A DNA stretch of 64,000 nucleotides, taken from NCBI RefSeq assembly GCF_023806465.1, contig NZ_JAMSLS010000001.1, positions 558,001 through 622,000 on the forward strand, read 5' to 3'. Position 1 is the first letter of the stretch. The number at the start of each line of letters is the position of its first letter. Positions 36,313 through 55,349 of this stretch are shown piece by piece. The notes below the pieces were generated by a model, which was not told the DNA's origin, searched no databases, and was given only the letters and a program-made list of their open reading frames with translations. A program made the position numbers and the translations under genes. The stretch is from Thermomicrobium sp. CFH 73360 (GTDB lineage: Bacteria; Chloroflexota; Chloroflexia; Thermomicrobiales; Thermomicrobiaceae).

Positions 36313-39300
36313 CTACTGTTTCCCATTTCCGCTTTGAAGGGGATCAAAGTCTTTCGAGAAGACCGCGATATCAAAGGTGTTCTTTCCACGTCGCTTGGCT
36401 GCATAGAGCGCTTGGTCAGCCGCCAAGAGCAGGGTTCCGCTATCCGGATAGGGTGCTGCCGTTGCCAGTGCAGCGCCGATCGAGAGACTCACGTGGACGA
36501 AGGTGTCTTGGAGGTCAAACGGGCGATCCAACGCACGCAGCAACCGTTCTGCAATCCCTTGCACTTCCTCAGGGTTCGTGACTCCCTCCAAAAGCACCGT
36601 GAATTCGTCTCCGGCAAAACGGGCTACCGTGTCGCCGGCCCGGAGATGCGAGCTGAGACGCTGCGCGACCTCCTGCAGCATAAGGTCTCCCGCTGCGTGC
36701 CCCCATGTATCGTTGACTCGCTTGAAGTCGTCCAGATCGATGAAGAGGACGGCGAGCCCACTGCCATCGCGCTGCGCTCGGGCCAAAGCGTGTTCCACGC
36801 GGTCAAGGAACAGGAGACGATTGGCCAGACCGGTGAGCGGGTCGTGGAAAGCTCGGTGTCGCAGATCCTCCGATTCGCGCCAGCGCTCGAGCGCGAGCGC
36901 CGCAAGTTGCGTCGCCAACTCTACGAGTTGCTCTTCCTCCGGCCGCGGAGCTCGTGGCTCGGAGGCATAGAGTGCGATCGTCCCCAATATCCCACCGGTC
37001 GTATCGCGGATCGGCGTTGACCACGCTGCACGGAAACCACATCGCCTGGCAATCTCCCGGTACTCTGCCCACCGTACATCGCTTTCGATGTCCTCCACGA
37101 CAACTGATCGATTGAGGAAAGCTGCCGTTCCGCAGCTCCCCACATTCGGCCCAATCCGGAGGCCGTCGATGGCTGCCACATATTCGGATGGCAGATTCGG
37201 CGCTGCACCGTGATACAGTCGGTCATCCTTCCCCACAAGGAGCACCGAACAGCGAATGCCTGACGCCCGCGCTTCAACGAACCGGCACAACGAATCGAGC
37301 ACTTCGCTCAGTGGAGCCGCCTCCGCGATGAGACGAAGTAAGGCAGTCTGGGCGGCGAGCAACTCTTCGCTCTGCTTACGCTCAGTCACGTCCAAGAGCA
37401 ACCCGTGCCAGAAGAGCGGGTTCCCATGAGCATCGCGGAGCAGCACCGCACGATTCTCCAGCCAGACCCACCGGCCGTCCTTCCGCTGGAAACGGTACGT
37501 GACCTGGAACGGCTCGCCCGTTTCATCGGTTCGGACTGCCTCGGCGTAGATCCGAGGCTGGTCGTCCGGGTGCATACGACTGAACCAAAGGCCAGGAGTT
37601 GCGGTGAACTCCTCGCGGCTGAACCCCGTTACCTCTTCGATACGCTGGCTCAGATACGTCACCGGATAGTGCAGTGTTCCATCCGGGAGCAACACCGGTG
37701 TCGCCGAGGTAACGATCACGGCAGCGGGTATCTGCTCGACTAACGTTCGGTAGCGTTCCTCCGCGGCGCGGAGCTCCTCTTCGATCCGTTTGCGTTCGGT
37801 CACGTCGAGCATCACACCCTGCCAGTAGAGCGGCTTTCCCTCCGCATCGCGGATCAGGCGAGCCGTGCTCTCCAGCCAACGCACTTCACCATCACGCCGA
37901 ACGATACGGAACTCGCTGTGGAAGCGGCCAGTCACCCAAGCCTCACGAGTCTCCCGGCGCACGCGTGGGTAGTCATCAGGATGAATAGCCTGAACCCAGA
38001 GCGAGCGGTCTCGCTGATGCTCCTCTGGTGAATAGCCCGTAAGCTGCTCAATTTGCGGACTGACATAGAGGAGTGGACGATCGATCCGGCCATCTGGGTA
38101 GCGCATTGGCGTCGCGCCTTCGACATACACCACGGCTGGCAACTGCTCGACGAGCGTGCGGTACCGCTCCTCGGCTTCGCGCAGCGCCTGTTCGGCCTGC
38201 TTCTCGGGCGTAATATCAATGATCAGCGCATGCCAGGAGTGGACCGTGCCACTCGCGTCTCGGATTGGCCAAGTCTCATTGCGATGCCAGACGATGCGCC
38301 CGTCCTTACGAACGAATCGGTACTCGACTCGGATTGGTTCGCCCGTACGCTCCAGGCGCCCCAACGCTTCCAGCACTCTCGCCCGGTCGTCAGGATAGAT
38401 CGATCGAATGAGGACACCGTGCTGTTGCCATTCCTCTGGGGTATACCCCGTGAGATCCAGGATCCGCGGGCTTACATACCGGGTCTGAAAACTCGGCAGC
38501 CCATCCGTCAGCCACTCCGCCCGCGGCTCCACAATGACCAGTGCTGCCGGCAGCTGCTCCACCAGCGTGCGGAAACGCTCCTCCGCTTCACGGAGTGCGT
38601 GTTCGGCACGCTTGCGCTCGGTGATATCCATCAGGACTGCTTGCCGGGCCTCGATCGCACCGTCTGGCCCACGGATCACCCGTACCTCGTGCCAGAGCCA
38701 GACTGTTCGGCCGTCCTTCCGCAGGAATCGGTACTCCAGGCGGAGTGGTTCTCCGGTCTCTTCATGTCTCCAGAATGCCTGTAACACCCACTCCCGATCC
38801 TCTGGGTGCAAACTGCGCGCCCAGATCCCTGGAACTTTCCAGTCTTCCGGTGTGTATCCAGTGACTTCCTCAATCTGCGGGCTGACATACGAGGTCTCGT
38901 ACCCAGGCATCCCGTCCGGCAGACGCAGCGCATAGGGCACTACGCGGATGACCGCAGCCGGCAGCTGCTCTACCAGCGTGCGGTACTGCGCCTCAGCCTC
39001 GCGTAAGGCCTGCTCCGCTCGCTTGCGCGCAGTGATATCGGTCAGCAGTACCTGACGGTAGAGTGGGCGTCCTTCGGCGTCATGAATCACCTTCGTCCGA
39101 TGCCAGATCCAGATGAGCGAGCCGTCTTTCCGGTAGAGGCGGTACTCGATGTCGAGCGGTTGAGCGGCCTGCTCTGAGGCGTGCATCACCGTAAAGACCC
39201 AATCGCGGTCGTCTGGATGAAGCTGACGCGTCCAGGTTCCCGGTACCAGCCATTCGTCCGGCGTGAACCCAGTTAGCTGCTCAATGCCTGGACTCACATA

Positions 39301-42300
39301 GTGGAACGTGTAGTGCCGCGTCCCATCCGGATGGATTTCGGAGAAGGCGGAACGGATCAACACCGCGCCAGGAAGCTGCTCGACCAGCGCCCGATACCGT
39401 GCCTCGGCTTCCCGAAGGGCGAGTTCCGACTCCTTACGTCGCGTGACATCCATCAGCAGGACCTGCCGCTGGTATGGCCTCCCGTCAGGTGACCGAATAA
39501 CTCGTGTGATGTGCCAGATCCAGATGATCTGTCCATCCTTCCGGATATACCGGTACTCGAGGTCAAGCGGGCTCCCGGTCCGCTCTGACTCTCGCATCGC
39601 CGCGAGCACGAACTCGCGATCCTCTGGGTGAAGCTGCCTTGACCAGCGTCCAGGTTGTCCCCATTCCTCGACCGTGAAGCCGGTCAACCACTCGATGTTC
39701 GGGCTCACGTAATGGATGTCGTAGGCCAGCGCACCATCGGGTAGAACACGCGAGGTCGGAGCGCGCAGGATCACCGCTCCCGGTAGTTGCTCGACGAGTG
39801 TCCGGTAGCGCTCCTCAGCCTCGCGCAGGGCGAGTTCGGTTTGCTTGCGCTCTGTGATATCGGTCAGCAAAACCTGACGGTAGAGTGGCGAGCCATCAGA
39901 GGCACGGATAACGTGGGAAATGCTCCAGATCCAGATGACGCGCCCGTCCTTCCTCCGGAAGCGGTACTCGATGGAAATCGGGGCACCAGTGCGATCTGCT
40001 TCGGTCATCGCACTGACCACACGCTCCTGGTCGTCCGGATGGAGTCGCTCAAGCCACAACCCGGTGTGCCACTCCGAGGATGTGAAGCCGGTCAAGCGCT
40101 CGATGGCCGGGCTCACGTACGGATACGGCTCCGTCGTGACCAACATTGAGGTTTCGGGGAAGAGCGGCCGGATGAGCACCGCGCCCGGCGACTGCTCCAC
40201 CAGCGTGCGATAGCGTTCCTCGGCTAGTTGGAGTCGTTCGAGCAGTGCCCGCTGCTCAGTGATGTCCAGCGTGATGAGATAGAGATATCGCGGTCGACCA
40301 TGCGCGTCGCGGACGAGCGCACCGTCCTGACGTAGCCAGACCATGCGCCCGTCCTTCCTCCGGAAACGATACTCGAGCGGCTGCGTCGGCCCCCTCGTGT
40401 ACCAGGTGCGTGCCTCCGCGAGCACCCACTCCCGGTCGTCTGGGTGAATCCCCCGCATCCAGACACCGAGCTCGTTCCACTCCTCTGGCGTGTACCCTGT
40501 GAAGTCGACAATTCGCGGACTGCAGTAGAGCGTCCGCCAGCCCAGCGTGCCGTCTGGCAATGGCACTGGCTCCGGTTCGACGATCGTCACCGCTGCCGGG
40601 TGATGCTCGGCCAAGAGGCGGAAACGCTCCTCGGCCTCCCGGCCCGCTTCCTCTGCCAGCTTCTCGCTGGTCACATCGAGCAGGAGCGAGTGCCAAAAGC
40701 GCGGTTCACCGTGCTCGTCAACGATAAGCGTCGCCTCGTGTCGAATCCAGACCGTACGTCCGTCGGCTCGGACAAGCCGGTACTCCACCGTCTGGCTGCC
40801 TAGCTCGCGCAGACAACGCTCCAGACGAGCGAGGACACGCGGCCGGTCATCCGGATGGATGAGTCGCATCCAGAGCCCTGGCTCGGCCCATGCCCCAGGT
40901 GGATACCCGCTGAGCTGCTCGATCTGCGGGCTGACATACACCAACTCGAAGCTTGGTACCCCATCAGAGAGCCAGCTCGGTTGCGCCGCAACGACGAGCA
41001 AGGCCCCCGGCAGTTGCTCGACGAGTGTCCGGTAACGCTCCTCAGCCTCGCGCAGGGCCTCCTCCACCCGCTTCTGCGCGGTGACATCCACGATCACCCC
41101 TTGCCACGCGAGCGGGCGCCCTGTCACATCACGTAACAGCAGAGCATACTCACGCACCCAGACCACCGACCCGTCAGCTCGGACCAGCCGATAGTCGAGT
41201 GCGAACGGCTCCCCGGTCGCATCGGTCCGCAGCGACTCGTCGCGTACCCGCTCGCAGTCCTCCGGATGGATGAGCGAGACGTAGAGGTCGGGGCGAGCGA
41301 GAAACTCACTCACCGGATATCCGGTGAGTTGCTCGATGTACTCGTTGACATACTGCCAGCGGTAAGAGGGCATCCCGGAGGGCGCGAGTTCCGGCTCCGG
41401 ATCGGTGGCGTAGATGACCGCGGGCATCGTCTGGAACAGCAAGGTCAGACGCTGCTCTGCCTCCTCGCGAGCGCGTTCTGCCTCCATCCGTTCCGTGATG
41501 TCTTGAACGACCCCGTGGAGGTAGCGTTTGCCCTGCCGCTCTCGGCTGAGACGTGCAGTATCTTCCACCCAGATTAACTGCCCGTCACGCCGAATCATGC
41601 GGTAACGCAACGAGTACGGGCGCTCGTCCCGGATTGCCTGCTCGACTTCCTGTACGACCCAGTCACGATCCGCCGGATGGAGATGCTCGAACCACCGGCC
41701 GCGAACGCGGAGCCAGTCATCCGGGGTATAGCCGAGCAACAGCTCGATCTGCGGACTGATGTAACTCGGCTCACTCCGGTCATCAATCGGCACACGGTAC
41801 ACGACCACTGGCAGGAGTTCCACAAGTTCTCGATACCGTTGCTCAGCAGCTGCGGCCCGTCGCTCGCTCGCCCGTCGCGCCGAGATGTCACGCAGCCGCA
41901 CGACGTGAGCCAGAAGATGGCTGTCCTCCCGAACCGGCAGATAGTCGAGCTCGATCACTGCACCATCGCGGCGCTCCAGCTCAAGCTGCCGGAGCGGTTG
42001 CCCTGTGGCGAATGCTTGGCGCAGGCGATCAATGAACTCCATATCGGCGAATCGCTGCCGGAAGAGCATGACAACGTCGGCAAACGAGCATTCCGACGAG
42101 GCCCCAGACTCCCAACCGCCGAGCAGTTGCCGCGCAATCGCATTCGCGTAGCGGAGCATGAGATCTGGGTCAAAGATCAGGATACCGATCTCCACATGCT
42201 CAACTAGGAACGGACCGAGCCAGCGTTCTAATGCACTCGGATCGTCCAGTGGTGGGCGAGAGCGGTCAGCGAGCGGTCGGAGCAGCCAGCTCGCAGTGGC

Positions 42301-42555
42301 CAATTCCCCTGGCACGCTTGCGACTTCACACCGTTGGATTCGGTCGGAGAGGGTGAGCGTCAGCTCGGCCCACCCCGGCTCGCCACGCCGAGCTGCGGCC
42401 AGCAGCGCCTCAACCTGCGCACGTTCGTGCAGGGGCACCAGCTCAACCACCGCGCGCCCGAGGAGTGCAGCGTCCGGGGGCGTTGCAGCAGTAATCCGCC
42501 CCAGCGCATCGAGGCGCAGGAGAATCGTCATCGTCGTTGAGACCGCGGCCTGCAC
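36313..42555 (-). CDS. giant multi-PAS sensor diguanylate cyclase (13 PAS + GAF + GGDEF)
   Basis: A 2080-residue cytoplasmic protein without obvious membrane segments. From the N-terminus: a degenerate PAS, a canonical PAS, then eleven consecutive PAS_3-type units of about 135 residues each joined by near-identical helical linkers (variants of AEERYRTLVEQLP and DITERKRAEQALRE). Then a GAF domain (about 1735-1890) and a GGDEF domain (about 1895-2070). The catalytic motif is AGDEF (RFAGDEFTVLL), a variant still active in some cyclases. FIDLDDFKRVNDTWGHAAGD is intact. GTG 42555 is taken as start, ATG 42531 is also possible. It probably makes cyclic di-GMP in response to several signals. The broken HD-GYP gene follows. 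Confidence 0.93.
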   Translation of the reverse strand: MQAAVSTTMTILLRLDALGRITAATPPDAALLGRAVVELVPLHERAQVEALLAAARRGEPGWAELTLTLSDRIQRCEVASVPGELATASWLLRPLADRSRPPLDDPSALERWLGPFLVEHVEIGILIFDPDLMLRYANAIARQLLGGWESGASSECSFADVVMLFRQRFADMEFIDRLRQAFATGQPLRQLELERRDGAVIELDYLPVREDSHLLAHVVRLRDISARRASERRAAAAEQRYRELVELLPVVVYRVPIDDRSEPSYISPQIELLLGYTPDDWLRVRGRWFEHLHPADRDWVVQEVEQAIRDERPYSLRYRMIRRDGQLIWVEDTARLSRERQGKRYLHGVVQDITERMEAERAREEAEQRLTLLFQTMPAVIYATDPEPELAPSGMPSYRWQYVNEYIEQLTGYPVSEFLARPDLYVSLIHPEDCERVRDESLRTDATGEPFALDYRLVRADGSVVWVREYALLLRDVTGRPLAWQGVIVDVTAQKRVEEALREAEERYRTLVEQLPGALLVVAAQPSWLSDGVPSFELVYVSPQIEQLSGYPPGAWAEPGLWMRLIHPDDRPRVLARLERCLRELGSQTVEYRLVRADGRTVWIRHEATLIVDEHGEPRFWHSLLLDVTSEKLAEEAGREAEERFRLLAEHHPAAVTIVEPEPVPLPDGTLGWRTLYCSPRIVDFTGYTPEEWNELGVWMRGIHPDDREWVLAEARTWYTRGPTQPLEYRFRRKDGRMVWLRQDGALVRDAHGRPRYLYLITLDITEQRALLERLQLAEERYRTLVEQSPGAVLIRPLFPETSMLVTTEPYPYVSPAIERLTGFTSSEWHTGLWLERLHPDDQERVVSAMTEADRTGAPISIEYRFRRKDGRVIWIWSISHVIRASDGSPLYRQVLLTDITERKQTELALREAEERYRTLVEQLPGAVILRAPTSRVLPDGALAYDIHYVSPNIEWLTGFTVEEWGQPGRWSRQLHPEDREFVLAAMRESERTGSPLDLEYRYIRKDGQIIWIWHITRVIRSPDGRPYQRQVLLMDVTRRKESELALREAEARYRALVEQLPGAVLIRSAFSEIHPDGTRHYTFHYVSPGIEQLTGFTPDEWLVPGTWTRQLHPDDRDWVFTVMHASEQAAQPLDIEYRLYRKDGSLIWIWHRTKVIHDAEGRPLYRQVLLTDITARKRAEQALREAEAQYRTLVEQLPAAVIRVVPYALRLPDGMPGYETSYVSPQIEEVTGYTPEDWKVPGIWARSLHPEDREWVLQAFWRHEETGEPLRLEYRFLRKDGRTVWLWHEVRVIRGPDGAIEARQAVLMDITERKRAEHALREAEERFRTLVEQLPAALVIVEPRAEWLTDGLPSFQTRYVSPRILDLTGYTPEEWQQHGVLIRSIYPDDRARVLEALGRLERTGEPIRVEYRFVRKDGRIVWHRNETWPIRDASGTVHSWHALIIDITPEKQAEQALREAEERYRTLVEQLPAVVYVEGATPMRYPDGRIDRPLLYVSPQIEQLTGYSPEEHQRDRSLWVQAIHPDDYPRVRRETREAWVTGRFHSEFRIVRRDGEVRWLESTARLIRDAEGKPLYWQGVMLDVTERKRIEEELRAAEERYRTLVEQIPAAVIVTSATPVLLPDGTLHYPVTYLSQRIEEVTGFSREEFTATPGLWFSRMHPDDQPRIYAEAVRTDETGEPFQVTYRFQRKDGRWVWLENRAVLLRDAHGNPLFWHGLLLDVTERKQSEELLAAQTALLRLIAEAAPLSEVLDSLCRFVEARASGIRCSVLLVGKDDRLYHGAAPNLPSEYVAAIDGLRIGPNVGSCGTAAFLNRSVVVEDIESDVRWAEYREIARRCGFRAAWSTPIRDTTGGILGTIALYASEPRAPRPEEEQLVELATQLAALALERWRESEDLRHRAFHDPLTGLANRLLFLDRVEHALARAQRDGSGLAVLFIDLDDFKRVNDTWGHAAGDLMLQEVAQRLSSHLRAGDTVARFAGDEFTVLLEGVTNPEEVQGIAERLLRALDRPFDLQDTFVHVSLSIGAALATAAPYPDSGTLLLAADQALYAAKRRGKNTFDIAVFSKDFDPLQSGNGKQ
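37700..41860 (-). repeat. tandem PAS-coding repeat, about 400-bp period
   Basis: Eleven copies of a linker-coding sequence recur every 388-420 bases (near 37735, 38131, 38540, 38957, 39367, 39781, 40186, 40595, 41005, 41425 and 41813). Two of these, 39781-39831 and 41008-41058, differ at only two of 51 positions. The similarity at DNA level points to recent duplication or conversion. Confidence 0.8.
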
Positions 42556-46313: not shown

Positions 46314-47408
46314 GTGCAGGATCGAAATTTGCTCACCGGCGCGATCGACGAATGGCTCGCCGGTCGTCCTGCGGCAACGCGTCGCGCCTATATCCATGAC
46401 GTGCAAGAGTTCCTCTCAGCAGTCGGCGGGAGCTTCGCCCAGCTGGACGAGGTGGCGATCCGGCGTTGGTTGGCGACATTCGAGCGTCGTCATCTAGCAC
46501 CAGCGACGATGCGACGCAAGCTTGCCGCTGTCCGTTCTTTTCTCCGCTTTCTCCACGAACGGGGAGTCACGACGCACGATCTCAGTCACACTATTCCCAC
46601 ACTCGTACGACCAGCCGGAGCACCCCCACCAGTGGTACGGACAACAGAACGAGGCCGCCATCTGGCCGCTGCACTGCGGGTGGCTGAGCCGCGCCTGAAA
46701 CTCCTTTTGTGGCTCGTCGGCTGTGGTTGCCCCCTACCCGCTATCGCGCACCTCCGCTGGAAAGACCTTCAGCAACGTGACGGGGAAGGAATTGCGCTCT
46801 GCCTTGACGATCATGACCGGCCAATGCGTTGTGTGATCCCCGGGATCATCTGGCGCTCTCTCGAGCCGCTCAAAGCCGCCGCTCCTCCTGACGCACCGGT
46901 CTTCACCCGACCGGACAGAACACCTGCCACCCCGCAAGACCTCGCTGACACGATCGGCTGGGTGCTCGAGGAGGATAGCGCAGCCGATCTGCCACCCCCC
47001 AACACTCGTGATTCTGACCGTCTTCTGACACTTAGCGAGGTGGCCCAGCGGCTCGGCCTGCCAGAGACAACTGTGCGGTACTATCGAGACCGCTTCGCAC
47101 CCTATCTCCCCGTGGTTGGTGAAGGACGGTCGCGTCGTTACCCGCCGCAAGCGGTCGAGCGACTACGCTGGATCGTCGAGCAACTCCGTGCCGGGTTTGC
47201 AATACAAGAGATCGAGGCACAGCTCCGCAGTCGAGCTGGAGAAGTCACTCCCGCTACTGAAAAAGATGCCCAGCTTGCGGAAACTGTTGATCGGCTAAGC
47301 CAGCGCATCAGTGAACTGACGCAGAGCCTCCTCCGTGTTGCCCGGGCACTTGAGGAACAGAGACGCCATTTGATGACCAGCGACCCAGAGGAACAGCCAC
47401 CAGCCTGA
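46314..47408 (+). CDS. fusion of an inactive tyrosine-recombinase fold with a MerR-type DNA-binding domain
   Basis: A 364-residue protein with an unusual order of parts. Residues about 1-85 form a phage-integrase SAM-like core-binding domain (ATRRAYIHDVQEFLSAVGG, MRRKLAAVRSFLRFLHERGV). Residues about 115-215 resemble the recombinase catalytic domain (LRLLLWLVGCGCPLPAIAHL-like), but the first arginine is replaced (GCPLPAI for GLRISEL), and no H-x-x-R or active-site tyrosine is visible. Residues 238-305 are a MerR-like winged helix (TLSEVAQRLGLPETTVRYYR), then a coiled coil to about residue 350. It is likely a DNA-binding regulator. GTG 46314 follows GAGGGAG. Confidence 0.75.
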   Translation: MQDRNLLTGAIDEWLAGRPAATRRAYIHDVQEFLSAVGGSFAQLDEVAIRRWLATFERRHLAPATMRRKLAAVRSFLRFLHERGVTTHDLSHTIPTLVRPAGAPPPVVRTTERGRHLAAALRVAEPRLKLLLWLVGCGCPLPAIAHLRWKDLQQRDGEGIALCLDDHDRPMRCVIPGIIWRSLEPLKAAAPPDAPVFTRPDRTPATPQDLADTIGWVLEEDSAADLPPPNTRDSDRLLTLSEVAQRLGLPETTVRYYRDRFAPYLPVVGEGRSRRYPPQAVERLRWIVEQLRAGFAIQEIEAQLRSRAGEVTPATEKDAQLAETVDRLSQRISELTQSLLRVARALEEQRRHLMTSDPEEQPPA

Positions 47409-47594: not shown

Positions 47595-48158
47595 TCACCA
47601 TTCGTCAACGATTGCCCGGGCCGCCCAGATCGTGTTCGGAAAGCGCAGGCGAAGGATGTTCCAGACGCGATCAAGCTCTGGGCGAGACCGTGTTGCCAAA
47701 TACACAGCCACTCCCCACCAGTACGCAGCCTCTGGGGACCAGGGGCTGGGCGGTTCACGTTCGGCGATCCGGCGGAACAGCGCGCTCGCCTTCTGGAAGC
47801 AGACCCAAGAGAGTGCGACGTGTCCCTCCCTGAGATCGAGAAGCTCCAGGAAAAGATCGGGAGGCAAGAAGTCTGGACTCCGGTACCGAGCCTCACCACG
47901 TCGATCGAGAAAAAGGATAGTTGGTGTCCAAATGACCTCGAGTGGACGCAGCCATTGGCGCGGATCCTGAAAGAGATCCAGCGAAAGCGGCACGAAGCGC
48001 TCTTCGACCGCCGCCACGACGCGTGGGTCGCTGAAAGTCGCGGCTTCCAGCCGCGCACACCCTCGTCAGTCAACCTTCCACACGTAGGCGAGCACCAGCT
48101 TGCGTTCTCGCTGCGCGGTCTCGAGTGCTTGGGGAAGGCTGCGTCGCCAAGCGATCAT
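47595..48158 (-). CDS. thioredoxin-like protein with in-frame TGA at the redox-active position (candidate selenoprotein)
   Basis: The reading frame is continuous for 187 codons except one TGA at codon 31 (48068-48066). The start is ATG 48158 with GGGAGG (48171-48166) seven bases upstream. Before the TGA: MIAWRRSLPQALETAQRERK, then LVLAYVWKVD; after it: RGCARLEAATFSDPRVVAAV. This aligns with thioredoxin-like proteins of the form W-x3-C-x-G-C-x-R/K-L/M-D/E, so TGA replaces the first Cys of CxxC. VIWTPTILFLDRRGEARYRS and FLPPDLFLELL carry the cis-Pro region and the family's C-terminal part, which ends in a helical hairpin. A SECIS-like hairpin follows. If Sec is inserted, this is a UxxC protein; otherwise it is a pseudogene. 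No signal peptide is seen. Confidence 0.75.
48039..48055 (-). promoter_or_regulatory. SECIS-like hairpin downstream of the in-frame TGA
   Basis: On the minus strand a perfect 7-bp stem CGCGGCT / AGCCGCG with loop GGA begins 10 bases after the TGA. The first loop G is the 18th base after the TGA, within the distance range expected for bacterial SECIS elements, which need a G at the start of a small apical loop. The GU of the E. coli loop is absent. Confidence 0.45.
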
Positions 48159-48402
48159 CGGTGGACCTCCCAGACTGAAAATCGACAATCGGCCGTATGC
48201 GCCCTCACCGTGATTGCCGGCAAGTGAGCGCCAGGTATCATCACGGAGCGGATTCGCAGGCCTCGACGCCCACCGAGAGAAGTGGCCGTCCACGAGCGCA
48301 CCACGATAAGACTTCGGATGCCAAGAACACCACTGTTCTGACTCCGGCCCCGCGGGAGCAACGGAAAATCTGCGCGATCATCGCGCAACGGGCGCTCGAG
48401 CA

Positions 48403-52347: not shown

Positions 52348-53796
52348 ATGTACGGCACGTGCAGAACACCGGGAGAGGTCCTCGATCTCATCCGACAACG
52401 CAATATTCAGATTGTTGACCTCCGGTTCACCGACCTTCCAGGCACCTGGCAGCACGCCTCGTTACCGGCCAGTCAACTCGGCCTCGCCGACTTCGAACGT
52501 GGGATTGGATTCGATGGATCGAGTATCCGTGGTTTCCAAGCCATCGAAGAAAGCGACATGCTCCTCGTCCCCGATCCAACGACCGCCTTCGTCGACCCCT
52601 TCGCCACGATCCCGACATTAGCCATCATCTGCAATGTCATTGACCCGGAGACGCGGCAGCCCTATTCGCGTGATCCGCGCTACATCGCGCAGAAGGCCGA
52701 AGCGTTCCTTCGCACCACCGGAATCGCTGACCAGAGCTTCTGGGGACCGGAGATCGAATTCTTCCTCTTCGATCACGTCAGCTACGATGTCCTGCCGTAC
52801 CGGATGGGCTTTAGTATCGACTCCCGCGAAGGTTATTGGAACAGCGGCCGAAACGACGGAAAGCCTAACCTCGGCTACACCATCCGCCCCAAGGAGGGAT
52901 ATTTCCCTGCACCGCCGCACGATACCTTCCAGGACATCCGCAGCGAAGCTGCGCTTATCCTGGAGCAGATCGGTATTCCGGTCGAAATGCACCATCACGA
53001 GGTCGCGACGGCCGGGCAGGGTGAGATCGACATGCGTCGCGATACGCTGACCGCGATGGCCGATAAGGTCATGATCTACAAGTATGTCGTCAAGAACGTG
53101 GCGCGCAAGCACGGTTGTACAGCCACCTTTATGCCGAAGCCGCTCTTTGGCGATAACGGCAACGGCATGCACACGCACCAGAGCCTGTGGCGGGACGGCA
53201 TGAACCTCTTCTACGCACCCTGCCACTACGCTGAGTTGTCCGAGACGGCACTCCACTACATTGCCGGGCTCTTGACGCACGTCGACGCACTGCTCGCCTT
53301 CACGAGTCCAACAACGAACTCCTACAAGCGGCTCGTGCCGCACTACGAAGCACCAGTCAACATTGCCTTCTCTAAGCGCAACCGTAGCGCCTGTGTCCGC
53401 ATTCCGATGTACACCACCGGGCCGGAAAATGCGGCAACCAAGCGGATCGAGTTCCGACCGCCCGATCCGAGCTGCAATCCGTATCTGGCCTTTGCCGCCA
53501 TGCTCATGGCCGGAATCGACGGCATCATGCAGCGCCTCGACGCCAGCCCATTTGGCCCGCTGGATGTGAATACCTACCACCTTCCACCGGAGGAGGCAGC
53601 TCGGATTCGAAGCGTCCCTGGTTCGCTCAGCGCGGTGCTCGAGGCACTGGAGCGTGATCATTCCTGGCTCCTCGAAGGCGACGTCTTTACGCGCGACGTG
53701 CTTGAGACCTGGGTCGCCTACAAGCGGGAAAAGGAGCTCCAGGAAGTCAATATCCGGCCACATCCCTATGAGTTCTACCTGTACTTCGATGTATGA
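52348..53796 (+). CDS. glnA: glutamine synthetase, type I (beta-like)
   Basis: A 482-residue enzyme that makes glutamine from glutamate, ammonia and ATP. Signature runs are FDGSSIRGFQAIEESDMLLV, HHHEVATAGQGEIDMR, KPLFGDNGNGMHTHQSLW and PTTNSYKRLVPHYEAPV, and the metal-binding glutamates are present. NTYHLPPEEAARI at the C-terminal side keeps the Tyr that is adenylylated in beta-type enzymes (usual NLYDLPPEE), so control by adenylylation is possible. ATG 52348 is the start. Upstream are a promoter, a structured leader and a palindrome. Confidence 0.95.
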   Translation: MYGTCRTPGEVLDLIRQRNIQIVDLRFTDLPGTWQHASLPASQLGLADFERGIGFDGSSIRGFQAIEESDMLLVPDPTTAFVDPFATIPTLAIICNVIDPETRQPYSRDPRYIAQKAEAFLRTTGIADQSFWGPEIEFFLFDHVSYDVLPYRMGFSIDSREGYWNSGRNDGKPNLGYTIRPKEGYFPAPPHDTFQDIRSEAALILEQIGIPVEMHHHEVATAGQGEIDMRRDTLTAMADKVMIYKYVVKNVARKHGCTATFMPKPLFGDNGNGMHTHQSLWRDGMNLFYAPCHYAELSETALHYIAGLLTHVDALLAFTSPTTNSYKRLVPHYEAPVNIAFSKRNRSACVRIPMYTTGPENAATKRIEFRPPDPSCNPYLAFAAMLMAGIDGIMQRLDASPFGPLDVNTYHLPPEEAARIRSVPGSLSAVLEALERDHSWLLEGDVFTRDVLETWVAYKREKELQEVNIRPHPYEFYLYFDV

Positions 53797-53984
53797 CGGA
53801 CGTGTTCGCACATTGGTGGGTGGGGATGGGAGGTGGTGTGATGGGACCATGACGCGTTAAGGAGTTAAGGAGTACACTCATGGGCGGCCAGGATGGCCAC
53901 GGCGTAGCCGCGAGGATCAACCGGTGGCAACGGCGCCGTTGGTGGATCGGCAGTGACGGTCGATTCCAAGAAGGAGGTTTTGCT

Positions 53985-55349
53985 TTGGTTGTCGATACGA
54001 GTGTCGTCGGTCGTCGCGCACCAGCTCCGACCCCAGAAGAGGTGCTGAAGCGTGCCGAAGAACTCAAAATCGAGTTCGTCAGCCTCCAATTCACCGACAT
54101 TATGGGGATCGTGAAGAACGTCCAAATCCCCGTCGATGTCTTCCCTCATGTTATCGAGCAGGGACAGTGGTTCGACGGCTCCTCGATCGAGGGGTTTGCC
54201 CGCATCGCCGAGAGCGATATGTTTCTGATGCCGGACCTCTCTACCTTCGCCCCGATTCCTTGGGATCCGCAGACCGCACGTGTGATCTGCTGGGTGTACA
54301 ACCCCAACGGGGAACTCTTCCCGGGTGATCCGCGTGTGGTCCTTCTGCGTCAGCTCGAGCGGGCAGCAAAGCTCGGCTTCGTCTATAACACCGGGCCAGA
54401 ACTCGAGTTCTTCCTGTTCCGCAAGGAGAACGGCAAGATCATGCCGCTCCCCCATGACCAAGGGAGCTACTTCGACTTGACCACTGACCTTGCTGCCGAG
54501 GTACGCAAGGACATGATCCGAGCTCTGCAGGCCTTCGGCATCAAGGTCGAGGCTGGGCACCACGAGGTCGCGATCGGCCAGCACGAGATCGACTTTGAGT
54601 ATTCCGATGCTCTTACGACGGCCGATAACGCGATCACCTTCAAGTACACGCTGAAGGCGATCGCGCAACACCATGACCTGCACGCGACCTTTATGCCTAA
54701 GCCGATCGCCGGCATCAATGGGAGCGGCATGCACACGCACCAGAGTTTGGCATCGATTGAGACTGGTGAGAACCTGTTTGTCGATGTCGACGACCCGTAC
54801 GGGCTCTCTGATCTCGCCAAACACTTCATCGCTGGCCAGCTGTACCACGCCCGCGGGATGTGCGCGGTTCTGGCACCACTCGTCAATAGCTACAAGCGGC
54901 TCGTGCCCGGCTACGAGGCACCGGTCTACATCAGCTGGGCACGGCAGAACCGCTCGGCCCTGATCCGCGTGCCAGCCGTGCGACATGGTCGCCTCCAGGC
55001 AACACGCATCGAGCTCCGTTGTCCGGACCCCTCCGCCAACCCCTACCTGGCCTACGCGGTCATGCTCGCTGCCGGACTGGATGGGATTGAGCGGAAGCTG
55101 TCGCTTCCCGAGCCGGTGGAAGAGAATGTCTACCACTTCACGGACGAAGACCTCAAGCGGCGCAACATCCAGACGCTCCCGGCGACGCTCGGTGAAGCAA
55201 TGGCAGAACTGGAGAAGGACGAGGTGATCCGCGAGGCGCTTGGTGAGCACGTCTTCGAGCGGTTGCTCGAAGCACAGAAGCGCGACTGGGACACCTTCCG
55301 GCAGTATGTGACCCAGTGGGAGCTCGATCGGTACCTCGAGATCTACTGA
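53985..55349 (+). CDS. glnA: glutamine synthetase, type I (alpha-like)
   Basis: A second type I glutamine synthetase, 454 residues from TTG 53985, which has AAGGAGG at 53971-53977. An in-frame ATG at 53880, itself preceded by AAGGAG, would add 35 residues with many Arg and Trp. The sequence (FDGSSIEGFARIAESDMFLM, GHHEVAIGQHEIDFEYSDAL, KPIAGINGSGMHTHQSL) is of the alpha class. The region VYHFTDEDLKRRN replaces the adenylylation loop, so adenylylation is not expected; feedback inhibition is the usual control in this class. It lies 188 bases after the first gene and ends at a strong terminator. Confidence 0.94.
   Translation: MVVDTSVVGRRAPAPTPEEVLKRAEELKIEFVSLQFTDIMGIVKNVQIPVDVFPHVIEQGQWFDGSSIEGFARIAESDMFLMPDLSTFAPIPWDPQTARVICWVYNPNGELFPGDPRVVLLRQLERAAKLGFVYNTGPELEFFLFRKENGKIMPLPHDQGSYFDLTTDLAAEVRKDMIRALQAFGIKVEAGHHEVAIGQHEIDFEYSDALTTADNAITFKYTLKAIAQHHDLHATFMPKPIAGINGSGMHTHQSLASIETGENLFVDVDDPYGLSDLAKHFIAGQLYHARGMCAVLAPLVNSYKRLVPGYEAPVYISWARQNRSALIRVPAVRHGRLQATRIELRCPDPSANPYLAYAVMLAAGLDGIERKLSLPEPVEENVYHFTDEDLKRRNIQTLPATLGEAMAELEKDEVIREALGEHVFERLLEAQKRDWDTFRQYVTQWELDRYLEIY

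Follow-up and report, generated by a model that had tools for sequence, protein, structure and literature searches.

The window, a stretch of 64,000 nucleotides from Thermomicrobium sp. CFH 73360, contains a reverse-strand gene that is interrupted by a TGA at codon 31, and the question is whether this codon ends the protein, is a mutation or is read as selenocysteine (Sec). The original prediction was a selenoprotein, and the frame at 47595-48158, its start, the GGGAGG sequence and the lone internal TGA were all found as it had described them (Table 1). The frame ends with a TGA at 47595-47597. A listing of open reading frames under the standard code gives, in the same frame, just a 140-amino-acid ORF 3' of the internal TGA that starts with GTG at 48017, whereas the read-through product is MIAWRRSLPQALETAQRERKLVLAYVWKVD-U-RGCARLEAATFSDP... 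The window DNA had no matches to Rfam at the gathering thresholds, and no tRNA was found in it with ARAGORN.

Table 1. Coordinates of the gene, its predicted elements and its upstream neighbour in related genera
Feature	Position	Strand	Remark
Predicted selenoprotein gene	47595..48158	-	187 codons and a stop; TPR-like helices come after a thioredoxin-like domain
Ribosome-binding site GGGAGG	48166..48171	-	read directly; 7 bases 5' of the ATG at 48158
TGA codon 31, putatively read as Sec	48066..48068	-	first residue of U-R-G-C; 36 TGA and 9 Cys in 45 orthologues
Cys34 codon TGT, predicted second redox residue	48057..48059	-	invariant in the alignment
Codons +6 to +12, candidate SECIS region	48030..48050	-	nucleotide-level freezing in TGA orthologues
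Preferred own-genus SECIS hairpin (predicted) CGCGGC-UGGAA-GCCGCG	48039..48055	-	loop about 16-17 nt after the UGA; G at loop positions 1-2
C-terminal helical TPR-like tail	47598..47818	-	about residues 114-187; profile matches and structure model
DinB_2/MDMPI_N-like gene	L049:1997-2536, L054:3032-3562, equivalents in L051, L058, L059		upstream neighbour

If the UGA is read as Sec, the host should have the machinery to do so, and a search for selA, selB, selD and tRNA-Sec had been proposed with the original prediction. Indeed, the host genome (3.06 Mb, completeness 99.7%) has all of them, the tRNA-Sec with a UCA anticodon. The host selD has its own in-frame TGA in the context SCAGUAGK, presumably the usual Sec site of selD; in a formate dehydrogenase alpha-like gene, the context of the TGA is NQARI-U-HSS, and another gene of this type also has an internal TGA. 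In light of the tRNA-Sec, selA, selB, selD and these UGA-containing genes, it is very probable that UGA is decoded as Sec in this organism. As a separate observation, about 50 bases separate the end of a tyrosine-integrase-like ORF (L001:7-1593, G000 contig C33) from the 3' end of the tRNA-Sec gene, which may serve as attachment site of an integrative element.

An in-frame stop codon, which standard annotation would read as a stop, could also have arisen by a nonsense mutation from TGC or TGT or by a sequencing error, leaving a pseudogene or an early end. The homologue alignment that the original prediction had called for bears on this directly. In the same family, the gene is present in 15 of 21 genomes, with TGA at codon 31 in 14 and TGC in one. 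The full-length orthologues of the class comprise 29 with TGA, which is thus found at the same aligned codon in 28 other genomes, more than chance would account for, and nine with TGC or TGT. Eight further TGA copies were found in the rest of the phylum, two of them in one genome, and seven of the eight were read and compared. Of 45 orthologues altogether, 36 have TGA at codon 31 and the other nine a Cys codon, with no third state and no TAA or TAG anywhere. The TGA orthologues come from independent assemblies in several classes of Chloroflexota and reach down to about 33% identity. Further stops or frameshifts in relatives, which would have spoken for a decaying gene, were not seen; both flanks of the TGA are conserved and otherwise open. 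We rejected a nonsense mutation or pseudogene, given the conservation of the TGA at codon 31, and consider this explanation to have next to no probability. The relatives that have names are Bacterium HR28, Thermomicrobium sp. SKW109, Thermalbibacter longus and Sphaerobacter spp. Named genomes were scanned with a single narrow peptide pattern, and the orthologue sets come from Chloroflexota. The Sec/Cys difference even occurs within one genus (L026 versus L027-L029). Since three near-complete members of the family (G005, G019 and G020) do not have the gene, it is dispensable. The genome with two copies of the family (G328) has them on contigs C110 (L090) and C63; both contain the TGA, and they have diverged.

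If the TGA encodes Sec, its distribution should follow that of the sel genes. In fact, selA or selB was above the cut-off in 29 of 29 TGA genomes of the class. In all of these but G129 and G148, selA was above the cut-off; both exceptions have selB above the cut-off, and G129 also has a tRNA-Sec match of 65 bits. Seven of the nine Cys genomes have neither selA nor selB above the cut-offs; G002 and G080 keep both. When selA alone is counted, its association with the state of codon 31 has a Fisher P of 9e-5. Because the seven Cys genomes that have no sel genes belong to a single clade, the co-occurrence represents few independent events. The orthologue tree, which was rooted at the midpoint only and has a few long deep branches, requires three state changes. 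Instead of nine independent events, there would thus be one well-supported loss and, apart from it, two exchanges. On the simplest reading, Sec would be the older state and Cys the derived one.

Bacterial Sec insertion needs a signal within the message, and here the alignment gave evidence beyond what the original prediction had. In the TGA orthologues, the nucleotides of codons +6 to +12 after the TGA hardly vary, whereas those of adjacent codons do. Among sequences with the commonest residue, the codon was GAT in 31 of 31, GCC in 32 of 32, GTG in 30 of 31, ACG in 25 of 29, TAT in 25 of 29 and CCA in 14 of 26 cases; these are raw counts over related sequences. The frozen codons are far off the usage of the genes themselves (TAT, for example, has a usage of 0.22). 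None of the nine Cys orthologues shows the freezing, and their amino acids have changed as well (for example, LDAVTYP to LANETFT). In most lineages, the frozen stretch is predicted to fold as CUGGAUGC-CGUGAC-GUAUCCAG, with the loop 24-29 nt after the UGA. The folding energy was lower in TGA than in Cys orthologues (P = 4e-5), 84% of cells were paired compared to 15-53% when slid, pair counts exceeded those of shuffled and slid controls, and the alifold energy of 29 sequences was below that of 300 of 300 codon-column shuffles. Synonymous-shuffle energy tests on single sequences were mostly weak when taken individually; the test that proved informative was that of codon freezing. RNAalifold found no common structure across all 36 TGA sequences, which was resolved by splitting them into lineages. 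The genus of the window gene prefers a hairpin different from the commonest one, C(G/A)CGGC-UGGAA-GCCG(C/U)G, with a G-C to A-U double change within the genus, and family f3 has AUCGGC-UGGAU-GCCGAU. The predicted hairpin of the gene itself has a stem of 6-7 bp, a UGGAA or GGA loop that starts 17-18 nt after the UGA, and a 42-nt MFE of -17.3. Bacterial SECIS elements are limited to a loop of 3-9 nt, a stem of 4-16 bp, a G in the first two loop positions, a distance of 16-37 nt after the UGA and an MFE of at most -7.5 kcal/mol (PMC13188914). As predicted folds, both hairpin forms, including that of the gene itself, lie within these limits. From the folding, two hairpin registers may really be in use.

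Thus, because relatives across the phylum keep the TGA together with a conserved insertion signal, the gene almost certainly encodes a selenium-containing redox protein, and the sel genes, the TGA/Cys exchange in orthologues and the intact relatives strongly support the original interpretation. We hold with great confidence that the sequence data describe a selenoprotein with a thioredoxin fold, probably cytoplasmic, in which SelB and tRNA-Sec would decode UGA codon 31 as Sec under the direction of a hairpin within the coding sequence about 11-37 nt 3' of the UGA. Sequence evidence strongly supports the Sec codon and its decoding machinery, as well as the constraint on the SECIS and the exchange of Sec and Cys among relatives. 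Readthrough is known in bacteria, and with the GTG start at 48017 one might argue that the TGA is translated by near-cognate suppression as Trp, Arg or Cys, or that it separates two products. However, the TGA aligns with the catalytic Cys and is exchanged for Cys only, it tracks the Sec machinery across genomes, it is followed by the frozen SECIS-like element, and, according to the structure model, a protein starting at 48017 would lose the first beta strand and the active site of the thioredoxin fold. Both readings are therefore very improbable.

What kind of redox protein could this be? The two sides of the TGA had been thought to belong to one thioredoxin-like family, and the Pfam matches of the read-through protein do run across the TGA: Thioredoxin_7 (PF13899) matched with 6.7e-9 and 36.2 bits (cut-off, 27), Thioredoxin_2 with 1.4e-8, and Thioredox_DsbH was also above its cut-off. 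Besides the PF13899 score, the protein has the UxxC motif and, in the model, the proline before the third strand (Pro79) that go with Thioredoxin_7. A classical thioredoxin (PF00085, WCGPC) is not indicated, with a weak PF00085 match in 4 of 28 members and UxGC without Trp. The placement of the TGA on the first redox Cys held in 45 of 45 orthologues, all with TGA or a Cys codon there. The proposed pattern C-x-G-C-x-R-L-D/E stood in part: all 28 aligned members share Cys34 and Pro79 (the proline of WTPT), and position 37 is nearly invariant, but distant relatives have UxAC instead of UxGC. The AlphaFold model (pLDDT 95.6, pTM 0.88) consists of a thioredoxin-like domain and then about four helices, and matches to TPR_6, YbgF and CpoB at the C-terminal tail support a TPR-like nature of the latter. 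Among solved structures, DsbD-gamma, a Thermus thioredoxin, DsbH, a Bacteroides disulfide isomerase and the thioredoxin-TPR protein YbbN come nearest to it. A signal peptide or membrane segment was not apparent by eye. Most likely, the protein acts in the cytoplasm as a thiol:disulfide (or selenol-based peroxide) oxidoreductase whose tail would bind proteins. Sec31 and Cys34 (U-x-G-C) would form the redox pair; by analogy with DsbD-gamma and thioredoxin, Sec31 would be the attacking nucleophile, and Cys34 would resolve the selenenylsulfide, either in thiol/disulfide exchange or when a peroxide is reduced. A partner or substrate is probably bound by the TPR-like helices. We infer the reaction, the partner, the location in the cytoplasm and what the tail does.

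The chaperedoxin YbbN/CnoX combines thioredoxin and TPR parts and protects and reduces proteins, and the protein could be a selenium-dependent counterpart of it rather than a general disulfide reductase. It has the same order of a thioredoxin domain and then TPR helices, with YbgF/TPR matches at the C terminus, and Foldseek aligned YbbN over 188 columns with an E value of 3.9e-7, but with an rmsd of 10.7, a TMq of 0.42 and only 15% identity. The superposition over the whole length is poor, the tail is shorter, and the thioredoxin domain is nearer to DsbD-gamma and DsbH than to YbbN. Moreover, a conserved operon with chaperones was not seen; a DinB-family gene lies directly upstream in two genera instead. 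A chaperedoxin is an unlikely assignment.

Among known selenoproteins, the thiol:disulfide interchange family (PF13098, UxxC, reference WP_011366075.1) comes closest (PMC13188914, PMC9312934). The protein shares the UxxC and scores above the PF13098 cut-off; however, its best Pfam match is PF13899, it ends in a TPR-like tail and a signal peptide is not apparent, although WP_011366075.1 was compared by description only. The best NCBIfam match was the C-terminal DsbD-like thioredoxin region of TsoB (NF045694), a rhodanese/DsbD fusion, but its 42 bits are far below the cut-off of 805, the rhodanese/DsbD part is missing, and a single Sec in UxxC stands against UxxxxU in TsoB. With the thioredoxin domains of DsbD-gamma and DsbH/DUF255, the protein shares the fold, the position of the CxxC and a profile match, but it has Sec for the first Cys, is free-standing and carries the TPR-like tail. 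No NCBIfam model was reached at its cut-off (VPGUxxT, 25 of 275 bits; Trx7-PDZ, unmatched). Table 1 of a 2026 review lists 119 prokaryotic selenoprotein families or subfamilies, several of them thioredoxin-like with UxxC and the PF13098 family being the nearest, but neither a thioredoxin-TPR family nor a PF13899 UxxC family is among them. A literature search for Thermomicrobia and selenoproteins found no description of the gene. Since no NCBIfam cut-off was reached and neither the 2026 list nor the literature contained such an entry, we rate the gene as a family or subfamily of selenoproteins that is new within a well-known kind; public protein databases may hold annotations of it. Only tentatively, and with more doubt than confidence, do we consider an undescribed phylum-wide Chloroflexota family of UxxC thioredoxin-TPR proteins, possibly selenium-dependent chaperedoxins, whose SECIS would be switched by lineage between two mutually exclusive registers and would dictate LDAVTYP after the active site.

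The gene neighbourhoods of the orthologues gave no phylum-wide operon. A tRNA nucleotidyltransferase is near the gene in about 10 loci, and the DinB_2/MDMPI_N-like gene directly upstream in two related genera possibly forms an operon with it there; this superfamily includes thiol-dependent enzymes. In the window itself, the ORF at 46314-47408 (+) has an N-terminal phage-integrase SAM-like domain and then a MerR-type HTH, without a match to an integrase catalytic domain, and is an unusual fusion or a degenerate recombinase. By eye, the translation of 36313-42555 (-) is a 2080-aa protein in which many PAS-like repeats stand in tandem and which also has a GAF-like region and a GGDEF domain, and the ORFs at 52348-53796 and 53880-55349 (+) are a tandem pair of different glutamine synthetase-like genes.

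The gene would represent a family of selenoproteins that would be cut short or overlooked in standard annotation, and it would widen the use of selenium, known or predicted, in Thermomicrobia-type Chloroflexota beyond SelD and formate dehydrogenase. The orthologues are a natural set of Sec and Cys forms that may show what Sec buys a thioredoxin fold, and also how the constraint of a SECIS shapes a protein and is released after the loss of Sec.
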